Source: Nitrosomonas sp.
GTDB lineage: Bacteria > Pseudomonadota > Gammaproteobacteria > Burkholderiales > Nitrosomonadaceae
Assembly: GCA_019635215.1 (NCBI GenBank)
Contig: JAHBZZ010000016.1
Span: 1 to 64,000 of the forward strand
Reading direction: 5' to 3'
Length of the DNA stretch: 64,000 bases
The notes beneath the pieces are model-generated. The model saw nothing but the letters and a program-made list of their open reading frames with translations. It was not told where the DNA came from and searched no databases. This document shows positions 10,824-24,555 of this stretch, in pieces. Both the position numbers and the translations under genes were made by a program. The stretch's first letter is position 1. Each line of letters starts with the position of its first letter.

Positions 10824-11678
10824 ATGTTACCGAATATTCAGGCATTTTTTGATCCTGCCACCTGGACGGTCAGCTATGTCGTTTATGATCAGTCCCGCGG
10901 AAAATGCGCCATTATCGATCCCGTACTGGACTACAACCCTAAATCAAGCCGTATCAGCACCGCCTCCGCTGACCGTCTCATTGCGTTTGTTCAGAATCAG
11001 CATCTGACCGTTGACTGGATACTCGAAACGCATGCGCATGCCGATCATTTATCCTCCGCGTATTACCTGAAAGGCAAACTGGGCGGACAAATTGCCATTG
11101 GCGAAAACATTCCCGCTGTACAGCAAACATTCAAAAAACTTTTTAACCTTGGCGATGAATTTGTACCGAACGGTCATCATTTCGACCACCTGTTCACCGA
11201 CAATGAAACGTTTCGGGTTGGCCAATTAGCCGGAAAAGCGCTTTCAGTGCCCGGTCACACGCCTGCGGATCTAGCGTATCAGTTTGAAGACGCGATTTTT
11301 GTCGGTGACACGCTGTTCATGCCAGATGTTGGCAGTGCACGCGCTGATTTTCCGGGTGGCGACGCACGCGCGCTCTACCGTTCGATCAAAAAACTGCTTT
11401 CTTTTCCGCCGGAAACCCGTTTATTCATGTGCCATGATTACCCGCCAGCCGACCGTGAGCCGGCCTGGGAAACCACCGTAGCAGCCGAACGTACGTACAA
11501 TATTCATGTGCATGACGGCATTGACGAAAATGCATTCATCAAGATGCGAACAAAACGTGATGCGACGCTTGATGCACCGGTATTACTGTTACCTTCAATA
11601 CAGACCAATATCCGCGCAGGCGCAATGCCGCCACCGGAAGATAACGGCGTTTCCTACTTTAAAATACCCATTCGGTGA
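10824..11678 (+). CDS. MBL-fold persulfide dioxygenase-like hydrolase (Blh/ETHE1 type)
   Basis: A 284-residue metallo-beta-lactamase-fold enzyme. The metal motif THAHADH near residue 71 is followed by GHTPADLAY and by FVGDTLFMPDVGSARADFPGGDA, which are typical of ETHE1-like glutathione persulfide dioxygenases and of Blh proteins. It oxidises persulfide sulfur to sulfite in sulfide detoxification. A good AGGAG site precedes the start. It is divergent from the YeeE/YedE genes and shares their regulatory region, so it is probably derepressed together with them by sulfide or persulfide. Confidence 0.9.
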   Translation: MLPNIQAFFDPATWTVSYVVYDQSRGKCAIIDPVLDYNPKSSRISTASADRLIAFVQNQHLTVDWILETHAHADHLSSAYYLKGKLGGQIAIGENIPAVQQTFKKLFNLGDEFVPNGHHFDHLFTDNETFRVGQLAGKALSVPGHTPADLAYQFEDAIFVGDTLFMPDVGSARADFPGGDARALYRSIKKLLSFPPETRLFMCHDYPPADREPAWETTVAAERTYNIHVHDGIDENAFIKMRTKRDATLDAPVLLLPSIQTNIRAGAMPPPEDNGVSYFKIPIR

Positions 11679-12858: not shown

Positions 12859-13037
12859 GATCAATCTATTTGAGCTTTTCTATACCTTACTTCAATCACC
12901 CTATTCAGCATGCACGAAAGCATGACTTCTTCCTGAAATCCCGATAACCACGCATTTCTCGGTTCCCGGTACTTTCAGTCATACCAGGCCATAGGGTAGA
13001 ATCTTTTTAATTCGTTCCAAGATCTGGAGTTTACCTA

Positions 13038-15413
13038 ATGCGTGTGCTTTACCCATTTCTATATTTACTGAGCCTCATTTTTTTGCTGTCTGCATGTCAG
13101 AATAGCGATAATCCAAGTGTCGATAACACCCTACTCCCCCTTCCCATCGCTTTGCCGGTACCTGCCGAACATCCTGTTTCCTTCACTCAGGAAATCCAGC
13201 CGATCCTTGAAGCAAAATGTTTGTCATGCCACAGTTGTTTCGATGCACCGTGCCAGCTCAAACTGGAAACGACAGAAGGATTGCTGCGCGGGGCCTTTCA
13301 TGAATCGGTCTACGGTGGTGCGCGCACCGAAGCCATGCCGCCAACTCGTTTGGGGATCGATAAACTCACCACCGCCGGTTGGCGTGAACGTGGTTTTTAT
13401 TCCGTCCTGCAAGCAGAAAGCGCACAACTGCCCTCATTGATGTTAAGTATGATCGCGCTGGCGAAACAACACCCTTTTCCACCCAATAGTAAATTGCCCG
13501 ACTCGATGGAAATCGAGATTACCCGGAAAAATTATTGTGTCTCCAATGCGGAATTCCACGATTACGCGCGCGATCACCCCTTAAATGGAATGCCGTTTGC
13601 AGTCAGTGGGCTGACGGATCAGGAATATGCACTTCTGGCTGGATGGTTGAATCAGGGTGCCGAAGTATCGGACGCACGCATTACGCTGACCAATGGCGAG
13701 AAACAGGCGATCGAAACCTGGGAATCATTGCTTAATCAAGATGGCAAACGCAATAAACTCGTTGCACGTTGGCTATATGAACACCTGTTTATGGCCTATC
13801 TGTATTTTTCGGAGCTGAATGACGAGCCTCGTTTTTTTGAGTTACTGCGTTCATCCACCCCGCCTGGTGAAACGATCAAACCCATCGCGACGGTCAATCC
13901 AAATGATGACCCCGGGGGACCGTTTTTTTACCGGCTGCGTCCAATCACGGGTAGTATCGTGCATAAGCGGCGCATCACCTATCCGCTTGATCAGGTAAAA
14001 CTGCAACGCATCGATGAACTGTTTTTCGGTACGGACTGGCCGATGGGTGAGTTGCCAGGTTATAGCTATACAGAACGTGCCAATCCGTTTGTGACTTTTG
14101 CCGATATCCCTGCTTATGCGCGCTACCAGTTCATGCTGGATGAAGCGGAATACTTCGTTCGCACCTTCATTCACGGGCCGGTCTGCCGCGGCCAGATTGC
14201 GACTGATGTGATACGTGATCATTTCTGGACGCTATTTCAGGACCCGGAATCCGATCTTTTTGTCACTAATGATTCCTATCAGCGTCAAGTCATCCCGCTA
14301 CTAGGCATGCCAGGGCAAGATGACGATTTGCTTGCCGCGAGTGAAAACTGGCTGCATTACCTCGGGCGCCATCAGGATTACCAGGCACTGCGTCGTAGTC
14401 AATATACATCGCAGCAACCGGATGGTGCATCGCTCATTCATGTCTGGAATGGTGGTGGCCGCAATAAAAATGCCTTGCTGACCATTTTCCGCCACCACGA
14501 CAGTGCCTCTGTCGTAAGAGGGCTCGCTGGCGATATTCCACAGACTATATGGTTAATGGACTATCCGTTACTCGAGCGGACCTATTATGAGTTGGTGGTC
14601 AATTTCGATGTATTCGGCAATGTCGCCCATCAATTATTAACTCGGCTTTATTTCGATCTGATCCGCAATGGTTCGGAGCACAACTTTCTGCGTTTGATCC
14701 CTGCCGGTCAGCGTAAAACCATCCTCAGCGATTGGTACCAAGGCTCAGGTGAACTGAAATTCGGAATTGTTTACGAGAATATCGATGATGAATCGCCTTC
14801 GGCAGAAAATTTCGTCACAGAAGACCCTAAACAAGAACTTGCCTTACGACTTCTCGAACGTTTCCAATCCATTAATGCCATGTCGCATGATGCATTGAAT
14901 CGTTGCCGGGCTGAGAATTGCAATCGCCCCGATCAGCCACGCTGGATACGACAAGCAGACCAAGCCCTGTCCAGCATCGCCGCACGCCCTGCAACCCAGC
15001 TTACCGGTATCACACAACTTCCCGAGGTGACATTCGTACGTGTCAGACATGAACAACATGAGCGTACCGTCTATACAGTACTGCGGGATCGCGCGCACAG
15101 CAATGTGGCTTTCATACTGGGTGAGGAATCCCGCTATCAACCTGAAAAGGATCGGCTCACCGTCTATCCCGGCATCACCGGCAGCTATCCCAATTTCATA
15201 TTCGACGTACCCGTGTCACAAATAGAAGAATTCGTATTGATGCTAGGCAATGCCGGAGAAGCGGAGGACTTTGAACGCGTTGTGGAAACCTGGGGAGTAC
15301 GACGTACGCACCCACAGTTCTGGGAAATTCTGCATGACATCACTGCCTGGCAAAAAACACAACAACCCTTGTTGGCAGGCGTATTTGATATTAACCGATA
15401 TAAAAATTTCTGA
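13038..15413 (+). CDS. cti: Fatty acid cis/trans isomerase (periplasmic c-type heme lipoprotein)
   Basis: A 791-residue protein matching the Cti family, which converts cis to trans double bonds in membrane phospholipid acyl chains as a fast response to solvents, heat or osmotic stress. Residues 1-20 form a signal with possible lipobox LLSAC, and a c-type heme motif CLSCH lies at residues 61-65, as in Pseudomonas Cti. Length is normal for the family (about 770-790). A GGAG site precedes the start. It is monocistronic and bracketed by a 56-bp inverted repeat with transposase remnants, suggesting acquisition by transfer. The next operon encodes DyP and P450 enzymes that might also act on lipids. 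Confidence 0.93.
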   Translation: MRVLYPFLYLLSLIFLLSACQNSDNPSVDNTLLPLPIALPVPAEHPVSFTQEIQPILEAKCLSCHSCFDAPCQLKLETTEGLLRGAFHESVYGGARTEAMPPTRLGIDKLTTAGWRERGFYSVLQAESAQLPSLMLSMIALAKQHPFPPNSKLPDSMEIEITRKNYCVSNAEFHDYARDHPLNGMPFAVSGLTDQEYALLAGWLNQGAEVSDARITLTNGEKQAIETWESLLNQDGKRNKLVARWLYEHLFMAYLYFSELNDEPRFFELLRSSTPPGETIKPIATVNPNDDPGGPFFYRLRPITGSIVHKRRITYPLDQVKLQRIDELFFGTDWPMGELPGYSYTERANPFVTFADIPAYARYQFMLDEAEYFVRTFIHGPVCRGQIATDVIRDHFWTLFQDPESDLFVTNDSYQRQVIPLLGMPGQDDDLLAASENWLHYLGRHQDYQALRRSQYTSQQPDGASLIHVWNGGGRNKNALLTIFRHHDSASVVRGLAGDIPQTIWLMDYPLLERTYYELVVNFDVFGNVAHQLLTRLYFDLIRNGSEHNFLRLIPAGQRKTILSDWYQGSGELKFGIVYENIDDESPSAENFVTEDPKQELALRLLERFQSINAMSHDALNRCRAENCNRPDQPRWIRQADQALSSIAARPATQLTGITQLPEVTFVRVRHEQHERTVYTVLRDRAHSNVAFILGEESRYQPEKDRLTVYPGITGSYPNFIFDVPVSQIEEFVLMLGNAGEAEDFERVVETWGVRRTHPQFWEILHDITAWQKTQQPLLAGVFDINRYKNF

Positions 15414-15467
15414 GGAAATCCATCAGACCGGACAAGAACTAGAGATTCATAAATTTTTCGCCCTCAT

Positions 15468-15614
15468 ATGTACTCTTCTTCTGTAAGATTTATAGCAAAA
15501 CTCAAATTCGCATTGATCCGTAATGTGCAGGAATATCCGGATACCTACCCAGCCGAACGGGCTCGTCGGCTGGGTATCGGTACATTGATTGGCAAATATT
15601 TTCTGACAAATTAA
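15468..15614 (+). pseudogene. IS630-type transposase remnant, right
   Basis: A 48-codon frame whose core reads RNVQEYPDTYPAERARRLGI. The PD-x-Y-x-x-ERA-x-RLG pattern is typical of the linker between the HTH and catalytic parts of IS630-family transposases. It then runs into the 56-bp inverted repeat and stops. It is oriented away from the isomerase gene, mirroring the left remnant, but comes from a slightly earlier part of the transposase. Confidence 0.5.
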
Positions 15615-15633
15615 ATCATTTTATGTGGCGTAG
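15578..15633. repeat. 56-bp inverted repeat, right copy
   Basis: Reverse complement partner of 12745-12800 with three mismatches over 56 bases. The outer-to-outer distance is about 2.9 kb and the enclosed cargo is the fatty acid isomerase gene. The remaining sequence up to the next gene at 15927 shows nothing else that I can identify. Confidence 0.85.
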
Positions 15634-15926
15634 GATATATTTATATTCCTCTGGAAAAACCGAATTCCTGGCAATCCGTTAAGCAAAGCCATGATTGAAC
15701 CAAATTGTTGCGCGAACAGCTTTTACATATTAAGATGTTTTTGGATTGGATTGATCAATCTGAACACAATATGCCACGGCATTCGGTGTTTGCAATTGAA
15801 TAACGGACAGTGAATGTATGCTGCAGAAGCGTGACATTTGTTACATTTCAAATACCTTTTAAGGCTGGAAAAAAGAAGAAACACACCGAAAAAGCTGATT
15901 AACAACATACCCATCAAGGAGCTGTT

Positions 15927-16568
15927 ATGTCGAACATAGCTGGTAAAGCCTATGCCATGAATGTGATCACCCCGATACGCTGGTACACAACCTGGACAAA
16001 CAAGCTGTTCTTTAAAGCTGCAACTTTACTCCCCAGTACATTGAAAGGATTGCAGACCTTGTCGCTGATTCACTACGCCCGATGGGTTATTATCCCCAGA
16101 AATGGCTTTCCCCATCTTGATTCAAGTCAACCTAAAGAAGACTTGCATTACGCTTACATGCTTTTTTTCAGTAACTTCAATGGCAGCTGGGACCAGTATG
16201 TGGATTCATTCACATTTGCCATACCTTCTGGGCTCGATTTGTTCTGGAAATGGAACGTCCGTTATCCCAAGTCCGTCCCGCTAACGCCTTTTCACAACTA
16301 TATCCGGCATAATCAGATCGATACAGCACATTACTACAATGCCTACCCTATGGCTGCATCCAACGATGTCAAATCGGCACAAAAAATCAAAAAAGCACTG
16401 ATCAATTTCAACGCAAAATCGAGTGATAAATCACCCGAGGATTTTCTGCAGGACTACTATCAGCTGCTCAACGATCTGCAACATCATTTCGGTGACATGA
16501 AACCCACACCGATCGTCAGTCTGTCATCTTACGAAGTCAAAAAACGCTACGAACAGACACAATTCTGA
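15927..16568 (+). CDS. Unknown protein, first gene of DyP-P450 operon (paralogue A)
   Basis: A 213-residue protein that I do not recognise. The N-terminal 60 residues are moderately hydrophobic and aromatic, without a clear signal peptide. The central segment LHYAYMLFFSNFNGSWDQYV resembles the matching segment of the next gene (SKYLVFSSNFHGDLDTYL), and both proteins end with a similar pattern of helix plus acidic-aromatic text, so they appear to be diverged paralogues. An AAGGAG site gives the start. It opens a tightly packed plus-strand operon with peroxidase, P450 and GST genes, so a role as partner or substrate carrier for those enzymes is plausible but unproven. Confidence 0.75.
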   Translation: MSNIAGKAYAMNVITPIRWYTTWTNKLFFKAATLLPSTLKGLQTLSLIHYARWVIIPRNGFPHLDSSQPKEDLHYAYMLFFSNFNGSWDQYVDSFTFAIPSGLDLFWKWNVRYPKSVPLTPFHNYIRHNQIDTAHYYNAYPMAASNDVKSAQKIKKALINFNAKSSDKSPEDFLQDYYQLLNDLQHHFGDMKPTPIVSLSSYEVKKRYEQTQF

Positions 16569-16604
16569 TCCTGTCAATCCCTCCATTTCAAAAGGAAGAT
16601 CAAT

Positions 16605-17312
16605 ATGGCTACAAAAAGTGGTAACGCAACCGCATTGACCGTCTTGTCGCCCATCAAAAATGGCGCCATCGGTGAAACTTCTCTTGCCGACATCACGCGC
16701 GAACGCTGTATGCGTTTACCGATCCATGAGAAAAGCCCTTTGACCAAAGTACCTAACACCTACCTCGCGCGCCTATTTATTCTGGATGATGTATTTTACG
16801 AATCGCTGCCCGCCGACGATGCTATTTTCAATTTTTCAGATATCACATCCATTTTCTCCGATTCCGCGCGTAAAAAAGCATTGCCGCGCAAAGATCATCT
16901 GAAATCGAAATATCTGGTTTTTTCGAGCAATTTTCACGGTGATCTGGATACTTATCTCACCGGTATGTGGGAAAACTGGTCCCACAATGATCACCAGGGC
17001 ATCCAGCGTGATGTGCGCTATATCTGGGAACACTGTGTGGCGTTCGACAAAGTCACCGACTGCGCCGCATTTATCGCCTATATAAAAAAATGCCAGCTTG
17101 AAGCCAGCCTGTTTTTTAATGGATCAACAGACGATTCGCTGCAGGAACAGCTGAAAGCACTTTACCTGAAACAGGAATTCACCCAGTTCGCGATCGAACA
17201 CCAAGGAAAAAGCGCGGTTGAAATTCAGCAGGATTTCAAAGCCTTTATAGCGCGCGTACAACCTGACAATCTGACCGCCCCCACATGGCCGCCCGGGAAA
17301 TCGACACCTTAA
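16605..17312 (+). CDS. Unknown protein, second gene of DyP-P450 operon (paralogue B)
   Basis: A 235-residue protein, family not recognised. The segment around residues 104-123 (SKYLVFSSNFHGDLDTYL) and the following W-x-N-W / D-x-RYIWEHC text parallel paralogue A. Residues 1-70 contain a loop KNGAIGETSLADI and a conserved-looking LARLFILDDVF. No signal peptide or membrane helix is visible, so it is probably cytoplasmic. An AAGGAAG ribosome-binding site precedes the start, 36 bases after the upstream stop. The pair of homologous small proteins before a DyP gene is unusual. Confidence 0.75.
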   Translation: MATKSGNATALTVLSPIKNGAIGETSLADITRERCMRLPIHEKSPLTKVPNTYLARLFILDDVFYESLPADDAIFNFSDITSIFSDSARKKALPRKDHLKSKYLVFSSNFHGDLDTYLTGMWENWSHNDHQGIQRDVRYIWEHCVAFDKVTDCAAFIAYIKKCQLEASLFFNGSTDDSLQEQLKALYLKQEFTQFAIEHQGKSAVEIQQDFKAFIARVQPDNLTAPTWPPGKSTP

Positions 17313-17385
17313 TGGTCGCCGATGAATGATTCCCAACCAGTTGACAAATCCACTGCAAAATCAACCCTAACAGGAACGATTAACC

Positions 17386-18906
17386 ATGACAAAAGATCTC
17401 GACTTAACAGACATCCAGGGTAATATCATCAAGGCTTACGGCGCATATAATTATCAGAAGGCGCGGTATTTGTTTTTACGGGTCAATAATGGTGACAAAG
17501 GCCGGAAATTTGTCGGCGCCATTACAGCCAAAGTCACTACAGCCATTTCGTGGAACAAATCCGGAAACGATCCTACCGTGGAAAAACCGACAGCCACCAC
17601 CAATATCGCTTTCACCTATGTTGGACTGAAAGCTCTGGAGCTGCCCACCGCATCGCTCAGAGGATTTCCGGAAGATTTCATGATGGGCATGGCAAAACGC
17701 AAGGACATTCTCGGCGACGACGGCCCGAGTGCACCGGAAAACTGGGATAATATCTGGAAAGAAAGGGTGCATATCTGGATGTCGATCAATGCACTGAACA
17801 CGGAAGCATTGATCGAACGCTATAACTGGGTTGTACAACAGGTCGAAGCTTCCGGTGGCGGCGTAACGCTGCTGACCGGTCACCGTGGCGATAATGGAGA
17901 AGATGATCTGCCTTACCAGGAAGCCAGCGTGTTATACGATGAATCGGGTGAGTCCACGCCTAAAGAGCATTTCGGTTTTACCGACGGTATCGGCGATCCG
18001 GTTTTCGAAGGGCAGACCAACATAGCTGCACGCGTACTGGGTCGCGGTAAATTGATGCGTGACGGCAGTTGGGCGCCTCTGGCGACCGGTGAATTCCTGC
18101 TCGGACATGTCGACGAAGCTATGGAATACCCAAAAACCTCTCCTTCGCCAACACTACTGGCGCGTAACGGCACATATATGGTTTATCGCAAACTGCATGA
18201 GAATGTCGGCACGTTCAATCGCTTCCTCGACGAACAAAGCAAAAGCTTTCCCGGCAGCAAGGAAATGCTGGCCGCAAAACTCGCCGGACGCTGGCGCGAC
18301 AATGGCGCACCCGTCGTCAAAGCCCCCGACGATGCCAGCAAAGCGGAATGGGACAAGGCATTCGAAGCCACCGATTTTGCCGGGAAAAAGCGCATGCTGA
18401 CCGACTTCAATTACAACGATGACATTCATGGCGCAAAATGTCCTTACAGCGCGCATCTGCGCCGCATCAACCCGCGCGGCTCACTGGAATACGGCGTAAC
18501 CGATGCCTACGAGACACCGGGCGCTTTAGTCAACCGGCGCAGAATATTGCGGCGCGGATTGCCTTACGGCAGCGTCAAGGATGCCACCCGGGATGACGGT
18601 AACCACGGCATCATTTTCATGGCGCTCAATGCCGATATTCAGCGCCAGTTCGAGTTTGTCCAGCAACAATGGATCAACTATGCCAATGACTTCAAGGAAG
18701 GCAACGACAAGGAGGTTTTACTCGGCAACCATGATGCCCAACATCCCGGCAAGGTTGTATTACAGGTCGAGCCCGGTTCCGGCAAACCGCCTCACTTCGT
18801 CAACAACATCCCGCGCCTGGTCGAAACACGTGGCGGCGATTATTTTTTCGTGCCGAGCATAACCGCATTGAAACTGATCGCAGCCGGTATGGTTGATCCG
18901 ACGTAG
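17386..18906 (+). CDS. Dye-decolorizing (DyP-type) heme peroxidase
   Basis: A 506-residue DyP peroxidase of the long (class V, fungal-like) type. It opens with LDLTDIQGNIIKAYG, the usual N-terminus of this class. The catalytic GFTDG motif places the key aspartate at D200; CPYSAHLRRINPR gives the proximal heme histidine H357; NGTYMVYRKL lies on the distal side. No Tat signal or encapsulin-targeting tail is visible, so the enzyme is cytoplasmic. DyPs use H2O2 or organic peroxides to oxidise bulky substrates. Neighbouring P450 and GST genes suggest a biosynthetic or lipid-peroxide role rather than dye or lignin degradation. Confidence 0.92.
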   Translation: MTKDLDLTDIQGNIIKAYGAYNYQKARYLFLRVNNGDKGRKFVGAITAKVTTAISWNKSGNDPTVEKPTATTNIAFTYVGLKALELPTASLRGFPEDFMMGMAKRKDILGDDGPSAPENWDNIWKERVHIWMSINALNTEALIERYNWVVQQVEASGGGVTLLTGHRGDNGEDDLPYQEASVLYDESGESTPKEHFGFTDGIGDPVFEGQTNIAARVLGRGKLMRDGSWAPLATGEFLLGHVDEAMEYPKTSPSPTLLARNGTYMVYRKLHENVGTFNRFLDEQSKSFPGSKEMLAAKLAGRWRDNGAPVVKAPDDASKAEWDKAFEATDFAGKKRMLTDFNYNDDIHGAKCPYSAHLRRINPRGSLEYGVTDAYETPGALVNRRRILRRGLPYGSVKDATRDDGNHGIIFMALNADIQRQFEFVQQQWINYANDFKEGNDKEVLLGNHDAQHPGKVVLQVEPGSGKPPHFVNNIPRLVETRGGDYFFVPSITALKLIAAGMVDPT

Positions 18907-18991
18907 CACTTGCTTACAACAATTACGGCTACCGGCACATGCATCGAAATAACGTGCGATCCCTGTTCATCACATCACTGGAGTTAGAATC

Positions 18992-20191
18992 ATGGCTAAA
19001 GAGACAAAACCATTACAGGAAAAACTGACCCAGTGGGCGCTTGCGCATCTGGATAGTATTTTCGCAGTATTGCGCGTCATCAAGCCCACTGTCGTCTTCA
19101 AAGGCAACGCAGTGGTTACCCGGTTTGAGGATGTTGTTGAGGTATTGAATCGTGACTGGGTTTTCAGAGTACCTTATGCCGAAAAAATGAACAAAGTCAC
19201 CGACGGTAGCAATTTCTTTCTAGGCATGGAAAATACCGATCAATACACACGCGATGTTTCCAACATGCGCATTGCCGCACGCCGTGAGGACATCGCCGAC
19301 ATCATCAAGCCCTTCGTCGACCAGACTAGCACATCCATCGTCAAATCGGCCGGCGGCCGGATGGATGTCGTTCAGCAACTCACACGCGTGGTTCCGACAC
19401 GCCTCATCGGTGAATATTTCGGCACCCCGGGCTGGAACGAAACCGAATTTGCCAATGCCGCAACAATCATGTTCCAGTATCTATTTTATCCAGATGATCC
19501 GGCAGTCGAAGAAAAAGCGCTCCGCGCCGCCGAACAAACGCGCAATTATCTGGATCAGGCTATCGCCACCCGAAAAGCAACGCCGATTAACAAGGATGAT
19601 GTCCTGAGCCGCTGCCTCAAATTGCAGGAAGCCGGCATGCCCGGCATGAGCGATGTGGATATCCGCAACAACCTGATCGGACTGATCATCGGCGCCATTC
19701 CGACCACATCGAAATGCGCCGCCGTCACACTCAATCATCTGTTCAATAATTCGGAACTGATGGTCGTGGCGCAGCAGGCAGCGCGCGCCGATGAAGACGA
19801 CAAACTGATCCAGTTTGTCCAGGAGAGTCTGCGTCTGAATCCCTTCGCAGCCGGCATTCAGCGCGTATGCGCAGAAGATTATGTGATCGCAAAAGGCACG
19901 CTGCGCTCGACAAAAATTCCGAAAGGCGCACGGGTACTTGCAGCAACCCAGTCGGCCATGATGGATGGGCGCAAAATCAAAAAACCCCGGGAATTCCAGC
20001 TTGACCGCCCTGCCTATAGCTATATGCATTTCGGTTTTGGTCTGCATACCTGTTTCGGCCAGTATATCAACCTGACCCAGATTCCCGGTATTATCAAAGC
20101 GGTTCTGAAACGATCAAATCTACGCCGAATTGGCGATATGAAAGTTGAAGAACCCTTCCCGGTCAGTCTGGAAATCGAATACGACAATTAA
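18992..20191 (+). CDS. Cytochrome P450 with atypical I-helix
   Basis: A 399-residue soluble bacterial P450. The heme loop FGFGLHTCFGQ places the thiolate ligand at C354 and the ExxR motif is ESLR (residues 278-281). The I-helix reads LIGLIIGAIPTTSK (228-241): the position that normally holds the acidic residue before the conserved threonine is proline (P237). P450s lacking the acid often act as peroxygenases or rearrange peroxides rather than activate O2 with electrons from a redox partner, and no ferredoxin gene is nearby. An 85-bp gap separates it from the DyP gene, and a GGAG site precedes the start. Confidence 0.92.
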   Translation: MAKETKPLQEKLTQWALAHLDSIFAVLRVIKPTVVFKGNAVVTRFEDVVEVLNRDWVFRVPYAEKMNKVTDGSNFFLGMENTDQYTRDVSNMRIAARREDIADIIKPFVDQTSTSIVKSAGGRMDVVQQLTRVVPTRLIGEYFGTPGWNETEFANAATIMFQYLFYPDDPAVEEKALRAAEQTRNYLDQAIATRKATPINKDDVLSRCLKLQEAGMPGMSDVDIRNNLIGLIIGAIPTTSKCAAVTLNHLFNNSELMVVAQQAARADEDDKLIQFVQESLRLNPFAAGIQRVCAEDYVIAKGTLRSTKIPKGARVLAATQSAMMDGRKIKKPREFQLDRPAYSYMHFGFGLHTCFGQYINLTQIPGIIKAVLKRSNLRRIGDMKVEEPFPVSLEIEYDN

Positions 20192-20254
20192 CCGATTTGT
20201 TTTACCAACTCCCTTCTGCTATGGAATGGATCTGAACCGCACCGCAGGAGAAAA

Positions 20255-21043
20255 ATGAACACCAAGAAAAAACCCGCTCACGTACTATCCTTCTCACCCA
20301 GCGCCAATGCCGAGCTGAACCGCTGGGTGCTGTTTTATTATGGCATCCCGTTCAATGAACACCGGCATACGCTGCCTTTTTATTTCCTGCTGAACAAATT
20401 ATCAGGCGGTAAGAGCCTGGTTTTGTGCCGCGACGGCGATATCAAACTGACCAGTGTACGCGATGTTATCCATCACTATGACGCACTGACGGCTGTAGAA
20501 AGGAAACTGATTCCGGATTCACTGTCCAGCGAAATGCAATACAGCTGGCACCGCTACAACTCCGACCTCGGCCATGCAGTCGTCGAATGGGCCTACACCA
20601 ACCTGCTGCCGCACAAGGCCATCATGATCCGCCCGCTCACACTGGGCAGTCCCTGGTTTGAACGCTATTTTGTCAAATATTGCTACGCGATTCCCAAACA
20701 GATAATCTGGAAGTCGCAAAACCTGAGTATGCCCGCAGCGGACAGAGCAATGTGCCTGATTAAGGATATTTTTCAGGAAGTCGATCAGATACTGTCCGAC
20801 GGGCGCAGATATCTCTACGGCGATACACTGACGCTGGCTGATCTGGCCTTTGCAGTCAGCGGCGCACCATTGGTACTGCCTGCCAATTATGGCGGCGACC
20901 AATTCGAACAGGGTGCTATTCCGACCTTTGACGAATTTCCCGTGGCGCTGCAGGAAATTATCAGTGCAATGCGTCAGACAACAGCCGGAAAGCATATTCT
21001 CCGGCTCTACGCCGAAGCGCGTTATACCACGATACCCGGTTAG
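20255..21043 (+). CDS. Glutathione S-transferase-like protein
   Basis: A 262-residue protein with a thioredoxin-like N-terminal half (HVLSFSPSANAELNRWVLFY, residues 9-28, then the turn KLTSVRDVIHHYD in place of the usual ESxAI glutathione motif) and an all-helical C-terminal half ending in YLYGDTLTLADLAFA, the GST N-capping box region. The first catalytic position is Ser/Asn rather than the bacterial Cys. It may conjugate or isomerise reactive electrophiles made by the P450 or peroxidase. The start has a CAGGAG site. It is the fifth gene of the operon. Confidence 0.85.
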   Translation: MNTKKKPAHVLSFSPSANAELNRWVLFYYGIPFNEHRHTLPFYFLLNKLSGGKSLVLCRDGDIKLTSVRDVIHHYDALTAVERKLIPDSLSSEMQYSWHRYNSDLGHAVVEWAYTNLLPHKAIMIRPLTLGSPWFERYFVKYCYAIPKQIIWKSQNLSMPAADRAMCLIKDIFQEVDQILSDGRRYLYGDTLTLADLAFAVSGAPLVLPANYGGDQFEQGAIPTFDEFPVALQEIISAMRQTTAGKHILRLYAEARYTTIPG

Positions 21044-21064
21044 TACAATTCGTAGCTTCATTGC

Positions 21065-21841
21065 ATGCGCTGGATCACTCAATTTACCGGAAATCTGCTG
21101 GCGAAATACCTGACATCGCCGCTCAAAAAAAACACCTACTATCCAGCTGTCAGCCAGGAAACACTGCATGCGATACTGCAGCCGGCAGATGTTTTGCTGG
21201 TCGATGGCGACACACGCCTAAGCGTTCCGATCAAGTACCTGACCCAGTCAACCTGGTCACATGCTGCAATCTATGTCGGACACACCGCACTGCCCGCCCG
21301 GGAATCCTGGCAGATGCCGCTGGTACTGGTCGAAGCCGACCTTAAAGAAGGTGTACGCGCAACCACTCTGGCGCATTACGCCCATTTGAATACGCGTATT
21401 TGCCGCCCTGTAGGTTTGGATGAAACGGACCGTCAACGTGTCGTTGATTTTGTTATCAGCCGGATCGGTCATCATTATGATCTGAAAAATATCTTTGATC
21501 TGGCACGCTATCTTTTCCCGCTGGCACCGATACCAACCCGCTTCCGCCGCCGCCTGCTGATGCTGGGCAGCGGCGACCCAACTCGCGCCATTTGCTCGAC
21601 ACTCATTGCACAGGCTTTTCAATCGGTGTCGTACCCGATTCTGCCCGAAATCAAGCGTGAATGGCTGAGTGACCCGCAATGCGCCGATTGCTATGCCGAA
21701 ATTTACCATATCCGCCACCACAGCCTGGTTACACCAAGGGATTTTGACCTCTCCCCTTTCTTCGATATTGTCAAGCCGACAATCCGTAAAGGCTTCGATT
21801 ATCGTGCGATTGCCTGGCGGCAGGACCATGAGGAAATATAG
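21065..21841 (+). CDS. YiiX-like permuted papain-fold (NlpC/P60) hydrolase
   Basis: A 258-residue protein with the circularly permuted NlpC/P60 order: histidine first in STWSHAAIYVG (H66), acidic residue in LVEAD (E90), and nucleophilic cysteine late in TRAICSTLIAQAF (C177). This YiiX/YaeF/LRAT-like superfamily hydrolyses or transfers amide and acyl groups, including lipid substrates. A basic, hydrophobic segment (about 145-168) could touch the membrane. It starts 21 bases after the GST gene and closes the operon. A lipid-directed activity would suit the cluster, but the substrate is unknown. Confidence 0.85.
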   Translation: MRWITQFTGNLLAKYLTSPLKKNTYYPAVSQETLHAILQPADVLLVDGDTRLSVPIKYLTQSTWSHAAIYVGHTALPARESWQMPLVLVEADLKEGVRATTLAHYAHLNTRICRPVGLDETDRQRVVDFVISRIGHHYDLKNIFDLARYLFPLAPIPTRFRRRLLMLGSGDPTRAICSTLIAQAFQSVSYPILPEIKREWLSDPQCADCYAEIYHIRHHSLVTPRDFDLSPFFDIVKPTIRKGFDYRAIAWRQDHEEI

Positions 21842-21957
21842 CTGCCGATAACCGGGAAACTGGCGGACACATCAATCCATTATAATCCGGTATTTCTTCC
21901 GCTCAGTTTATTCACAAGCGTGTCACCATTCAACACATCCGGATCAAATCGCGCCTA

Positions 21958-22386
21958 ATGTCTCTGAATTCCGGCATTGATCCCGTTACCCTTCGCGCCT
22001 ATCTGGAAACGGAATACCAGATTCATGGCGCAAATCCCTTCACACTTAGAGTTGGTGCAGCTTGTCCAGCACTGGCCGAATTGCACAAAGCCCATGCAGT
22101 CACGAATAGCGCGTTTGTAACAGCTTACAATCCCTTCAGCACGCTTCTGAATGAGACGGACAATGCTGCACGCCATACAAAACTCAGAAAAACACTGAAA
22201 CACCGCGGATTTGTTTTCTTTGAAGGCATCGGCAAACATCCGGCAAACGACTGGCCCGGTGAACCCGGTTTCCTGGTGCTCGGCATCAGCCTTGAGGCTG
22301 CCAGCGCTTTAGGAAATCAACTGGAACAAAATGCGATCATCTGGAACAACACCGATACAGTTCCGCAGTTGATTCTGCTGCGATAA
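21958..22386 (+). CDS. DUF3293 family protein
   Basis: A 142-residue cytoplasmic protein matching the DUF3293 family: AYLETEYQI near the N-terminus, FVTAYNPFSTLLNETDNAAR in the middle and GFLVLGISLEAASALGNQLE near the C-terminus. The function of this family is unknown. It has no close operon link; a gap of about 115 bases separates it from the hydrolase gene upstream. Confidence 0.85.
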   Translation: MSLNSGIDPVTLRAYLETEYQIHGANPFTLRVGAACPALAELHKAHAVTNSAFVTAYNPFSTLLNETDNAARHTKLRKTLKHRGFVFFEGIGKHPANDWPGEPGFLVLGISLEAASALGNQLEQNAIIWNNTDTVPQLILLR

Positions 22387-22514
22387 TACTGAAAAACCCT
22401 GAGCCAATGACTTGCAATGACAATATCTTGCCGCCGTTGCATAATGCAGTCAACGGCCAATCATACCGATCAATTTTTTCAGCCATTTATCCCATTCATC
22501 AGGAGAATCGCTTC

Positions 22515-23027
22515 ATGAAACGACGCACTGTGCTACAAGGTTTTGCTGTCCTGACCGTACTGCCACTGATTCCGGCTTGTTCCAAAGTCGTTGGTGAAAC
22601 TGCTACACCGGTTACACCGCTCAACAAGCCACGTGCGGAATGGCGCGGCCTGATCTCGCCCCAGGCCTATCAGATACTGTTTGAAGAGGCAACCGAGCGC
22701 CCCGAATCCAGCAATCTGGTTTACGAGGAGCGCGAAGGCACCTATCTGTGCGCGGCCTGTTATCTGCCGCTGTTTGAAAGCGCCCATAAATACGAAAGCT
22801 GGACCGGCTGGCCCAGCTTCACCCAGCCCATTCCCGGACATATCGCCACCCGGATCGACTTCAAGATGATCCGGCCGCGCACGGAATACCATTGCGTGCG
22901 CTGCGGCGGTCATCAGGGCCATGTTTTCAAGGATGGGCCGCCGCCGCGCGGAGAACGCTGGTGCAATAACGGCTACGCTTTACGGTTTATCCCGCTGGAA
23001 GAACCATTACCTGCGCTTAGAAGCTGA
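22515..23027 (+). CDS. msrB: Peptide-methionine (R)-S-oxide reductase, exported
   Basis: Starts at the ATG at 22515, which has an AGGAGAA site, rather than at an upstream in-frame codon. The first 22 residues (MKRRTVLQGFAVLTVLPLIP followed by AC) combine a twin-arginine-like motif with a lipobox, so the enzyme is exported and probably lipid-anchored. The MsrB domain has zinc ligands in CAAC and CVRC and the catalytic cysteine in RWCNNGYALRF. It repairs oxidised methionine in envelope proteins, which fits the peroxidase-rich neighbourhood. Confidence 0.93.
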   Translation: MKRRTVLQGFAVLTVLPLIPACSKVVGETATPVTPLNKPRAEWRGLISPQAYQILFEEATERPESSNLVYEEREGTYLCAACYLPLFESAHKYESWTGWPSFTQPIPGHIATRIDFKMIRPRTEYHCVRCGGHQGHVFKDGPPPRGERWCNNGYALRFIPLEEPLPALRS

Positions 23028-23120
23028 TCTATTCATATTACGTTCATCACCGGTCTGCCAAGCTATTAAATCAACCGGCATCATGTTGCACCACCACGAC
23101 AATTTATAAGGAGATTTCCA

Positions 23121-23894
23121 ATGAAACCGACAACCATCTGCAAAAAAATCATTATACTAAACACCCTGTTTTTTCTCCCTCTACAGGCTACAGCGGAAGA
23201 AACCCTGTGCTCGGGTTCCTTAGGCAATACCGTTGTGGACAATTTGCTCATCCCGAGCAACAGTGAATGCGTACTGCAAAATACCCGCATCATGGGCACT
23301 ATTCAGGTTGCCGCCAACGCGGTTCTGACTGCACGTCGGGTTGTCGTGATCGGCAACGTGCAGGCTGAAAATGCGCGCCAGGTCAACATACTGGACAACT
23401 CACGCATCGGTGGTTCGGTGCAAATCAAACAGGGTGGCGGCGCAATCATCAGTGACAGCATTATCGAAAGCGACATTCAGTTTGAAAGCAATGGTCAGCC
23501 ATTCAAGGCGCTGCGCAACGACATCGGCGGCAGCGTGCAGGTTTTTCAGAACAGCGGCAGTGTCGAAATTCAATACAATACGATTGATGGCAACCTGCAA
23601 TGTAAGGAAAATGCTCCAGCGCCAACCGGCGGCGCGAATCGCGTGGCTGGAAACAAGGAAGATCAATGCGCACGGCTGACGGGACTGAACGCTGCACAGG
23701 AAAACTGTATCCAATCACACCCGACGTTTGGTACGGATGCACGTCTGCATATTCCCCGCCTGAGCGTCGTCACCCAGGATGGCGTTGTCGTTGACTATTG
23801 GGCGAATCTGCACTATGCGCCGGCTTTATCGACTAACGGCAATCTCGTTTTTGAACTACGCGAACCCGCCTCGAATCTTGGTCAATGCAACTGA
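23121..23894 (+). CDS. Secreted beta-helix-type protein
   Basis: A 257-residue protein with a signal peptide ending near PLQATAEE. Residues 30-175 consist of short repeating strands (IMGTIQVAANAV, VVVIGNVQAEN, RIGGSVQIKQGG, DIGGSVQVFQNS, TIDGNLQCKEN), each with an x-I-x-G-x-(V/L)-Q core, which suggests a small right- or left-handed beta-helix. Two cysteine pairs may form disulfides. The C-terminal 70 residues are different in character (IPRLSVVTQDGVVVDYWANL). A strong AAGGAG site is present. No function is known to me. Confidence 0.75.
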   Translation: MKPTTICKKIIILNTLFFLPLQATAEETLCSGSLGNTVVDNLLIPSNSECVLQNTRIMGTIQVAANAVLTARRVVVIGNVQAENARQVNILDNSRIGGSVQIKQGGGAIISDSIIESDIQFESNGQPFKALRNDIGGSVQVFQNSGSVEIQYNTIDGNLQCKENAPAPTGGANRVAGNKEDQCARLTGLNAAQENCIQSHPTFGTDARLHIPRLSVVTQDGVVVDYWANLHYAPALSTNGNLVFELREPASNLGQCN

Positions 23895-23920
23895 TCGGGA
23901 GAGAAAACAACACCGGAGCC

Positions 23921-23958
23921 TATTTCGCACTTTCACAGTCATGTGAAAGTGCGAAATA
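23921..23958. terminator. Perfect 16-bp hairpin
   Basis: Arms TATTTCGCACTTTCAC and GTGAAAGTGCGAAATA with loop AGTCAT, 27 bases after the beta-helix gene stop and 12 bases before the DUF2269 start. No T-tract follows. A transcription attenuator or terminator is likely. Confidence 0.6.
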
Positions 23959-23970
23959 CCACAAAACACC

Positions 23971-24555
23971 ATGACCTATGATCTTCTCAAACTTGCTCAC
24001 GTCATCGGCACCGTTCTGATCGGCGCAGGATTGATTGGCGTCTGGATCAATGACCTGCAATCCCGCCAGACTTTAGATCTGGTGCGCTTCTCGGAATCGG
24101 TAAGAAATATTGCGGTCTTTTATGACGGCGTGGTGGTTCCTGGCGCAATCATTCTGCTTGTCTCGGGGACCTGGATGATTGCCGTGTTTTACGACGGCTG
24201 GAGTTTTATTTCAATACCCTGGCTGGCGGGCATGGTTGCCCTGTTCACGTTTGAATTTATCGAAGGCAACACCGTCACACGTTTTTATTTCATGCGACTA
24301 CGCCGCTTATCTGAAGAATCCCTGGCTGCCGGCACGTTTACACCTGATTTAATTAAAGCGCGCAGCGAACAAGGTCCTGCATTTACTCATTTTCTCGATC
24401 TGCCTATATTATTTTTAATCGTCACACTTGGCGTACTCAAGCCGAATGACTGGCGTGTGTTTTTTACGGGTTTGCTACTCGCGCTCGTCATCGCAGTCGC
24501 TCTGATGATCATCGCTTCGCGTCTTTATCCACGGTCTGGCGACAATGCAAGTTAG
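23971..24555 (+). CDS. DUF2269 family inner-membrane protein
   Basis: A 194-residue protein with four to five hydrophobic helices (about 5-27, 50-72, 78-97, 140-155, 160-183). The opening LLKLAHVIGTVLIGAGLIGV is characteristic of the DUF2269 family. Function is unknown in the family. It starts very close behind a perfect hairpin, with no strong ribosome-binding site. Confidence 0.85.
   Translation: MTYDLLKLAHVIGTVLIGAGLIGVWINDLQSRQTLDLVRFSESVRNIAVFYDGVVVPGAIILLVSGTWMIAVFYDGWSFISIPWLAGMVALFTFEFIEGNTVTRFYFMRLRRLSEESLAAGTFTPDLIKARSEQGPAFTHFLDLPILFLIVTLGVLKPNDWRVFFTGLLLALVIAVALMIIASRLYPRSGDNAS

Follow-up and report, generated by a model that had tools for sequence, protein, structure and literature searches.

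What do a DyP-type heme peroxidase, a cytochrome P450 and two proteins of no named family accomplish side by side in an ammonia-oxidizing bacterium? The question is raised by a cluster of six plus-strand open reading frames (ORFs) at positions 15927–21841 of contig JAHBZZ010000016.1 of Nitrosomonas sp. (assembly GCA_019635215.1), of which the first 64,000 nucleotides, referred to below as the window, were analyzed. The cluster encodes, in order, proteins A and B, the DyP-type peroxidase (DyP), the P450, a protein resembling glutathione S-transferases (GST) and a permuted papain-fold hydrolase. The answer put forward here, with a probability of roughly 45%, is a two-step, lipid-directed module in which the substrate of A, B and the DyP would be an unsaturated acyl chain or the corresponding hydroperoxide, and a second heme enzyme would carry out a rearrangement. 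The ORFs lie where a preliminary description of the locus had placed them, and the gaps, given there as 21–85 bases, measure 36, 73, 85, 63 and 21 bases in order. Because the gene order repeats across many genomes, the cluster is not a product of chance. A promoter scan of positions 13000–24000 returned 7 promoter-like sites against 12.0 expected, which neither favors nor excludes a single transcript.

A, B and the DyP form a conserved unit in scattered bacteria. Protein A (15927–16568; 213 amino acids, aa) carries a near-invariant HxxR motif (H49, R52) and the SNFNGSWDQYVDSF motif, B (16605–17312; 235 aa) is its paralogue, and the third product (17386–18906; 506 aa) belongs to the DyP-type peroxidases. 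The latter matches DyP_N with 45.7 bits and Dyp_perox_C with 30.3 bits, both over the Pfam cut-off, contains the GFTDG motif and, with 94.2 bits, stays just under the cut-off of 100.5 of NCBIfam TIGR01413. D200 and H357, previously described as intact, are present, and an alignment of 20 DyPs shows no variation in either column; no signal peptide is apparent by eye. A scan with the A alignment, using one genome per species, yielded 450 confirmed relatives, and counts out of 80 given below refer to the best 80 of these 450. The order A-B-DyP is kept on one strand in 76 of the 80, and in the other four the contig ends within or just after the unit. Since the co-occurrence is found well beyond the genome studied here, the gene order is not a peculiarity of that genome. 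The six genes do not travel together as the single unit described earlier: a P450 is encoded in 19/80 loci (two of these being fragments), a GST in 14/80 and the hydrolase in 6/80. The arrangement is that of an A-B-DyP core with a second layer made of the P450 and the GST, whose genes follow the core in the Nitrosomonas loci.

The distribution of the unit is sparse and uneven. When a broad class was searched, 3 of 369 genomes proved to encode A (E≤1e-30), and two of the three belong to the genus of the window. In that genus, 16 genomes encode a full-length A. A-family proteins stand beside DyPs in Deinococcota, Actinomycetota, Cyanobacteriota, Acidobacteriota, Bacteroidota and Pseudomonadota. 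A plasmid survey gave 68 records with a DyP match, of which 60 were listed and 14, picked for taxonomic spread, were viewed; in 13 of these 14 an A-family protein adjoins the DyP or is one gene off. The A2 profile matched these neighbors with E values from 7e-45 to 1.4e-14, against 0.64 for the best shuffled control. The carriers include Deinococcus radiodurans, Rhodococcus, Streptomyces, Nostoc, Gloeothece, Acinetobacter and alphaproteobacteria. The Acaryochloris DyP locus was negative with the A2 profile; there (L139:3869-6545), a different 329 aa protein, unmatched by the A profiles, lies upstream of the DyP. The complete A-B-DyP set is present in Granulicella, A and DyP are fused in one chain in Sinorhizobium medicae, and P450-A-DyP single-chain fusions occur in Pararhizobium and Sulfitobacter. 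Two long polypeptides, L023:5670-9941 (1423 aa) and L024:5559-10421 (1620 aa), each unite four elements: a P450, a stretch that to the eye looks like a membrane span, an A-type domain and a DyP domain. In Mucilaginibacter (L123:9684-10269), the match to B loses its frame partway, with nine stops in one frame, and reflects either a broken gene or a sequencing error. Weak A-like matches (E ~1e-7) within frames of 436–439 aa (G018:C58:99795-100067 and G080:C20:273116-273388) are possibly A-type domains in another context.

The place beside the core is where the second heme enzyme enters. In the 60 loci whose flanks extend 3.5 kb or more before A and 2.5 kb or more after the DyP gene, a catalase-related protein is encoded in 20, a P450 in 16, both in none and neither in 24 (Fisher p 5e-4, an optimistic value since the loci are related). 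Where filled, the slot beside A-B-DyP holds either a P450 or a catalase-related heme protein. Clustering of neighboring ORFs placed the catalase-related protein in 24 loci, and 21 of the 24 genes lie at most 2 kb from the DyP gene, just downstream; 16 of the 18 P450s in loci holding a DyP lie within 1.1 kb. The Methylococcaceae show both states, with a P450 in L081, L084, L086 and L095 and a catalase-related protein in L091 and L110, the last of which is outside the 60-locus set.

Enzymes of these families are also what a defense against peroxides would be built from, and this is the main rival explanation. According to it, A-B-DyP together with the catalase-related protein or the P450 removes hydrogen peroxide and organic hydroperoxides, the GST takes electrophiles, and no dedicated oxylipin is produced. 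Genes for DyP, catalase-related proteins and GST are repeatedly found around the unit, the Granulicella core is followed downstream by katG and the gene of a Fur-family regulator, and the first-slot partners seen all come from peroxidase-type families. One Rhizobium locus encodes a catalase matching Pfam at 82 bits; the catalase of Rhizobium rosettiformans matched neither the L091 nor the Deinococcus protein at 1e-3 and may be of another kind. Against this explanation, the catalase-related proteins are mostly divergent: L091 reaches 30.0 bits against Pfam Catalase, L118 and L063 remain below the cut-off, and among the five proteins compared, three are below, one just over and one (L133) well over. 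An MsrB gene follows the present cluster, but MsrB, like DUF3293, was matched in 1/80 loci. In addition, the enzymes alternate instead of accumulating, which is odd for simple defense. Peroxide defense is considered somewhat less probable than the lipid-directed module.

The occupant of the second slot in the window (18992–20191; 399 aa) belongs to the cytochromes P450, with 64.5 bits against a Pfam p450 cut-off of 22.8, E278xxR and heme Cys354, and it is the only Pfam P450 match found in its genome. An unusual oxygen-activation site had been claimed for it, and the alignment bears this out. The I-helix reads IGAIPTT, so that the acid–alcohol pair of conventional P450 monooxygenases is incomplete: Pro237 replaces the acid, and Thr238 is kept. 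Proline occupies the acid position in 16 of the 17 full-length P450s of A loci and is also found in L023, L024 and L046, and L026 reads PPQP. The sole exception in A loci is a divergently transcribed P450 beside A-B-DyP (L116:7311-8588), which retains the I-helix Asp. These residue changes bear on a further alternative, in which the P450 is a conventional ferredoxin-dependent monooxygenase acting on another hydrophobic substrate and the DyP performs a separate oxidation step of a small specialized pathway. The best 60 solved relatives are ordinary P450s, and the I-helix Thr-Thr is retained beside Pro237. Replacement of the acid in nearly all P450s of A loci argues against a conventional monooxygenase, as do the scan of ten window proteins, which revealed neither a ferredoxin nor a reductase, and the finding that no other biosynthetic gene recurs across lineages in the 17 neighbor-ORF clusters inspected out of 45 listed. 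This alternative is therefore considered improbable.

Relatives of this P450 elsewhere keep company of a similar kind, which lends the lipid-directed idea some independent support. In the same genus, 60 of 81 genomes encode a P450 by Pfam, and the clan of the present enzyme comprises 59, counted one per genome, after exclusion of a second high-scoring P450 family (G035, G092, G100, G076, G079) and a degraded copy (G027:C2). Thirteen of the 59 adjoin A or DyP (12 within 5 kb of A; G015 beside a DyP at a contig end). Going by 48 of the NF040606 matches listed, 46 of the 59 have a RoxA-like cytochrome no more than 3 kb away, and none stands beside both kinds of partner. In the A-linked genomes G019, G095 and G104, strong NF040606 matches among those listed are on other contigs. 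In three genomes with a full-length A (G067, G094, G102), the clan P450 is missing next to it, and in G004 a P450 fragment lies at the contig edge. Nine of the 46 partner matches fall under the NF040606 cut-off, two of which (L041, L042) were confirmed by Pfam PF21419; the resulting figure of 46/81 genomes with a RoxA-like/P450 pair includes type-3 and sub-cut-off pairs. In L035, L036, L038, L039, L041, L043 and L044, a P450 with the normal Glu directly adjoins a RoxA-like cytochrome with two CxxCH motifs, and such a combination is a candidate bacterial dioxygenase–P450 pair. Glu is the rule at the acid position of the sampled P450s linked to RoxA-like or An_peroxidase proteins, except for the type-3 pair L042/L047 (GAVVNPQ). 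In this pair (L042:6883-8760 and L047:5734-7611), a 626 aa P450 with the I-helix GAVVNPQEA adjoins a 650 aa protein with one CxxCH, which is RoxA-like in L042.

On plasmids, P450 relatives at ~30–33% identity likewise have partners. In Bradyrhizobium, such a relative adjoins a RoxA-like cytochrome, with an oleate hydratase gene ~3 kb further upstream; in Methylobacterium, it lies near a di-heme peroxidase; and in Rhizobium etli, it adjoins an animal-type heme peroxidase (An_peroxidase E 9e-44). In the P450 tree, the DyP-linked enzymes fall on one side of a weakly supported branch (79/69), and the An_peroxidase-linked P450, a long branch itself, lies within the RoxA-linked group on starred branches. 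Given this support and the long branches, a single origin of the DyP-linked P450s is unproven by the tree.

The remaining members of the core, A and B, are paralogous as described before (BLASTP E 4e-8, 22% identity over 126 aa). The profile comparison of the two is inflated by the presence of A rows in A6, and paralogy therefore rests on BLASTP. Neither protein reaches the cut-off of any Pfam or NCBIfam family, and eight of their relatives likewise exceed no Pfam cut-off. Profile searches against the PDB returned no match (best E 0.074 and 0.21), and known α+β barrel families (ABM, Dabb, EthD, DyP_N) were matched neither by profile nor, for the model of B, by fold. In a 22-row alignment of the A family, H49, R52, G86, Y91, F95, P114 and Q130 are among the invariant or near-invariant positions; B keeps the Arg of HxxR without the His of A (TYLAR where A reads IHYAR). 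The predicted model of B (pLDDT 78, pTM 0.58) has the element order β-α-β-β-α, and Foldseek found nothing for it at E≤0.001, with an ABM/SchA-like match at probability 0.25. Since the order of elements, as in ferredoxin-like domains, and not a structural match underlies it, we infer rather than observe a ferredoxin-like fold for B. The predicted model of A is poor (pLDDT 59, pTM 0.36).

The best solved match to the DyP is the Deinococcus radiodurans enzyme DrDyP (E 3.5e-49). The DyP gene of locus L135 encodes this very protein, with full-length matches of 1022 bits to 8RE2 and 8RE3 and two differing residues in the 8RE3 alignment. In that locus (L135:3151-6384), the DrDyP gene is flanked by an A-family gene and a catalase-related gene. 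The likeness to the present cluster is that an A-family gene adjoins the DyP gene; the differences are that there is one A-type partner, that no B was seen and that the stretch holds no P450. At pH 7.5, DrDyP has no activity and its heme is low-spin and six-coordinate (PMC10820274), which does not suit an enzyme of peroxide defense. The paper leaves its physiological substrate and activation open, and neither "operon" nor "catalase" appears in the main text (PMC10820274).

Neighboring genes point in the direction of lipids in part of the loci. Fatty-acid or lipid genes occur in 8 of the 22 A-linked plasmid loci viewed (L025, L135, L140, L142, L143, L144, L145 and L147); oleate hydratase, 3-hydroxyacyl-CoA dehydrogenase, thioesterases and acyl-CoA dehydrogenase are among the neighbors found. 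Among the 3-hydroxyacyl-CoA dehydrogenases from Deinococcus, Novosphingobium, Roseomonas and Acinetobacter, identity runs from 48 to 91% and is 48–56% for the distant pairs. L142, L144 and L145 have a common arrangement of oleate hydratase, 3-hydroxyacyl-CoA dehydrogenase, thioesterase and TetR, followed by catalase-related, A and DyP genes. They lie on plasmids of Novosphingobium, Roseomonas and Shinella, and in them the TetR gene faces the catalase-related gene; transposases lie nearby in two, and the block looks mobile.

There are two slots, and the heme proteins that occupy each of them are unrelated to one another; this suggests two chemical steps that share an intermediate. As families in both the first and the second slot are tied to fatty acid hydroperoxides, hydroperoxide chemistry on an unsaturated acyl chain is the economical reading. 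In the two-step module, A and B would be ferredoxin-like α+β partner subunits of the DyP that adjust its heme pocket or present the lipid substrate. The putative A-B-DyP complex would oxidize an unsaturated acyl chain, or reduce or use its hydroperoxide, in the cytosol at the inner face of the membrane. The second heme enzyme would then rearrange or cleave the hydroperoxide without a redox partner: here the P450 lacking the I-helix acid, which is probably partner-free, and elsewhere a catalase-related protein, possibly like the coral enzymes that form allene oxides. The GST may capture or isomerize the reactive product. In an ammonia oxidizer, the substrate would probably be a monounsaturated chain such as palmitoleate. 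Of all this, the conservation of the genes, the alternation and the changed residues are observed, and the complex, its substrate and product and the independence from a redox partner are inferred.

Several points weigh against this proposal. The strongest doubts include, besides the fit of peroxide defense, the enzymology: we know of no DyP that oxygenates fatty acids. They also include the orientation of the catalase-related genes, 22 of 24 of which lie on the strand opposite to A-B-DyP and therefore outside its transcript, compared with 4 of the 19 P450s; on alphaproteobacterial plasmids, the catalase-related gene runs the same way as A and DyP. A further strong doubt concerns compartments. 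RoxA-like proteins, with their CxxCH hemes, would be exported and the P450 is leaderless, so that this pair may not share an intermediate. The DyP-linked and RoxA-linked P450s are moreover separated in the tree and differ in the I-helix acid, and their partners need not be equivalent; the kinship of the RoxA-like partners with the Pseudomonas aeruginosa enzymes discussed below is one of RoxA-like match. As for alternation, the 24 of 60 loci with neither enzyme count against the module, as do three catalase-related genes 2.7–5.7 kb away. The Oxalobacteraceae show both states, but their P450 cases are a fragment (L069) and the divergent, 37% identical L116 enzyme, whose retained acid is itself an adverse point. 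None of the best 60 solved P450 relatives (258 and 558 matched in all) is named CYP74, CYP152 or prostacyclin synthase. Finally, 14 of the 22 plasmid loci have no obvious fatty-acid gene, the count of eight that do stands without a background rate, and three of those eight share one arrangement.

The genes around the core differ in how closely they belong to it. The GST-like protein (20255–21043; 262 aa) stays below the cut-off of all three Pfam GST models matched (best 20.2 against 24.9 bits), and its orthologue in L081 passes two of the three. The last ORF (21065–21841) encodes a member of Peptidase_C92, the YiiX/YaeF type (40.5 bits against a cut-off of 27), with His66 and Cys177, going by the motif, as the likely catalytic residues. 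The earlier family assignments thus stand for the DyP, the P450 and the hydrolase, and for the GST-like protein itself they fall short of the threshold. C92 was rejected as a core member: its six loci are all of the Nitrosomonas type, and relatives otherwise lie on plasmids of other genera. Upstream, a fatty acid cis/trans isomerase gene (13038–15413) matches the full Pfam CTI model and had been offered as lipid context; 0/80 A loci carry one, and it was rejected as part of the pathway. Both C92 and the isomerase would be optional neighbors of the two-step module. The previously proposed order of amidase release, peroxidation, P450 rearrangement and GST conjugation is hypothetical. Further upstream, positions 10824–11678 encode a metallo-beta-lactamase-fold protein like the C-terminal half of bifunctional Blh (below the cut-off), relatives of which sit upstream of A in five other loci. 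Two clusters of signaling proteins are likewise repeated in the neighborhood, cluster 3 at 22 loci and cluster 5 at 15, in varied places and on varied strands, and are taken for generic domain matches.

This loose outer layer might mean that A-B-DyP is the functional unit and that P450, GST and C92 are chance or regulatory neighbors kept in Nitrosomonas by descent. Such a view accords with the 61/80 loci that carry the core without a P450 and with the C92 relatives on plasmids of other genera, where the single neighborhood opened carried no annotation. It sits poorly with the P450-A-DyP fusions and with loci of some Methylococcaceae and others (L081, L084, L086, L095, L113, L117), where a P450, with or without a GST, flanks the core in other orders and orientations; in L081, L084, L086 and L113, this extends to P450 and GST in Methylococcaceae. 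It is regarded as very improbable.

Known systems offer partial precedents for the two-step module. P450s and catalase-related proteins both include enzymes that rearrange fatty acid hydroperoxides (PMC13049297; PMC5617202). In fungal linoleate dioxygenases, a peroxidase superfamily member (as An_peroxidase) is fused to CYPs (PMC13049297). These fusions, which comprise linoleate diol, allene oxide and epoxy alcohol synthases, resemble the present system in combining a heme peroxidase-type protein with a P450, there described as self-sufficient and hydroperoxide-handling, in the HxC of the heme loop and in a nonpolar or Thr residue at the I-helix site of several (PMC13049297). They differ in that their partner belongs to the peroxidase-cyclooxygenase superfamily, whereas its place is taken here by a DyP and two proteins of no named family, and no CYP orthology is shown. 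In corals, catalase-related allene oxide synthase and hydroperoxide lyase are fused to lipoxygenase, and the likeness lies in a hydroperoxide-handling step by a catalase-related heme protein (PMC5617202). At the presumed distal His, coral cAOS has Thr66-His67 (PMC5617202), and most bacterial catalase-related proteins here read Asp-Ala-His, with Asp-Thr-His in L063. The lipoxygenase partner is a difference: the present genome gave no match to lipoxygenase or to An_peroxidase, but neither did the control genomes, and absence is therefore not shown. In Pseudomonas aeruginosa, relatives of RoxA are a fatty acid 10S-dioxygenase (10S-DOX) and a 7,10-diol synthase, which make and convert fatty acid hydroperoxides; RoxA-like di-heme proteins thereby oxidize fatty acids in two steps (PMC4496055), and RoxA-like proteins pair with relatives of the present P450. 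There, both steps are catalyzed by di-heme cytochromes (PMC4496055), whereas NF040606 is unmatched in the present genome, 14 controls having given one match, below the cut-off. No paper on the A-B-DyP/second-heme-enzyme module was found among the full-text matches listed. What sets the module apart is that a DyP and a partner family without a name occupy the first slot of a proposed scheme that joins a heme oxygenase or peroxidase to a hydroperoxide-handling heme enzyme.

A bolder extension can be formulated, although it is unlikely. A-B-DyP would be a hitherto unrecognized multi-subunit fatty acid oxygenase in which the heme site of the DyP depends on A and B for its completion or switching, and it would feed interchangeable hydroperoxide isomerases, either P450 or catalase-related. 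The result would be a modular oxylipin pathway with three unrelated heme proteins for the first step (A-B-DyP, RoxA-like, animal-type peroxidase) and two for the second. Completion of the heme site by A and B would explain why DrDyP, crystallized without its neighboring A-family protein, is low-spin and inactive at neutral pH.

The physiological role is open for many bacterial DyPs, and the conserved partner family provides an experimental handle on it, foremost for DrDyP. If the lipid reading is true, the module would add one more way in which bacteria make oxylipins with heme proteins, and would give a reason for P450s and catalase-like proteins replacing each other.

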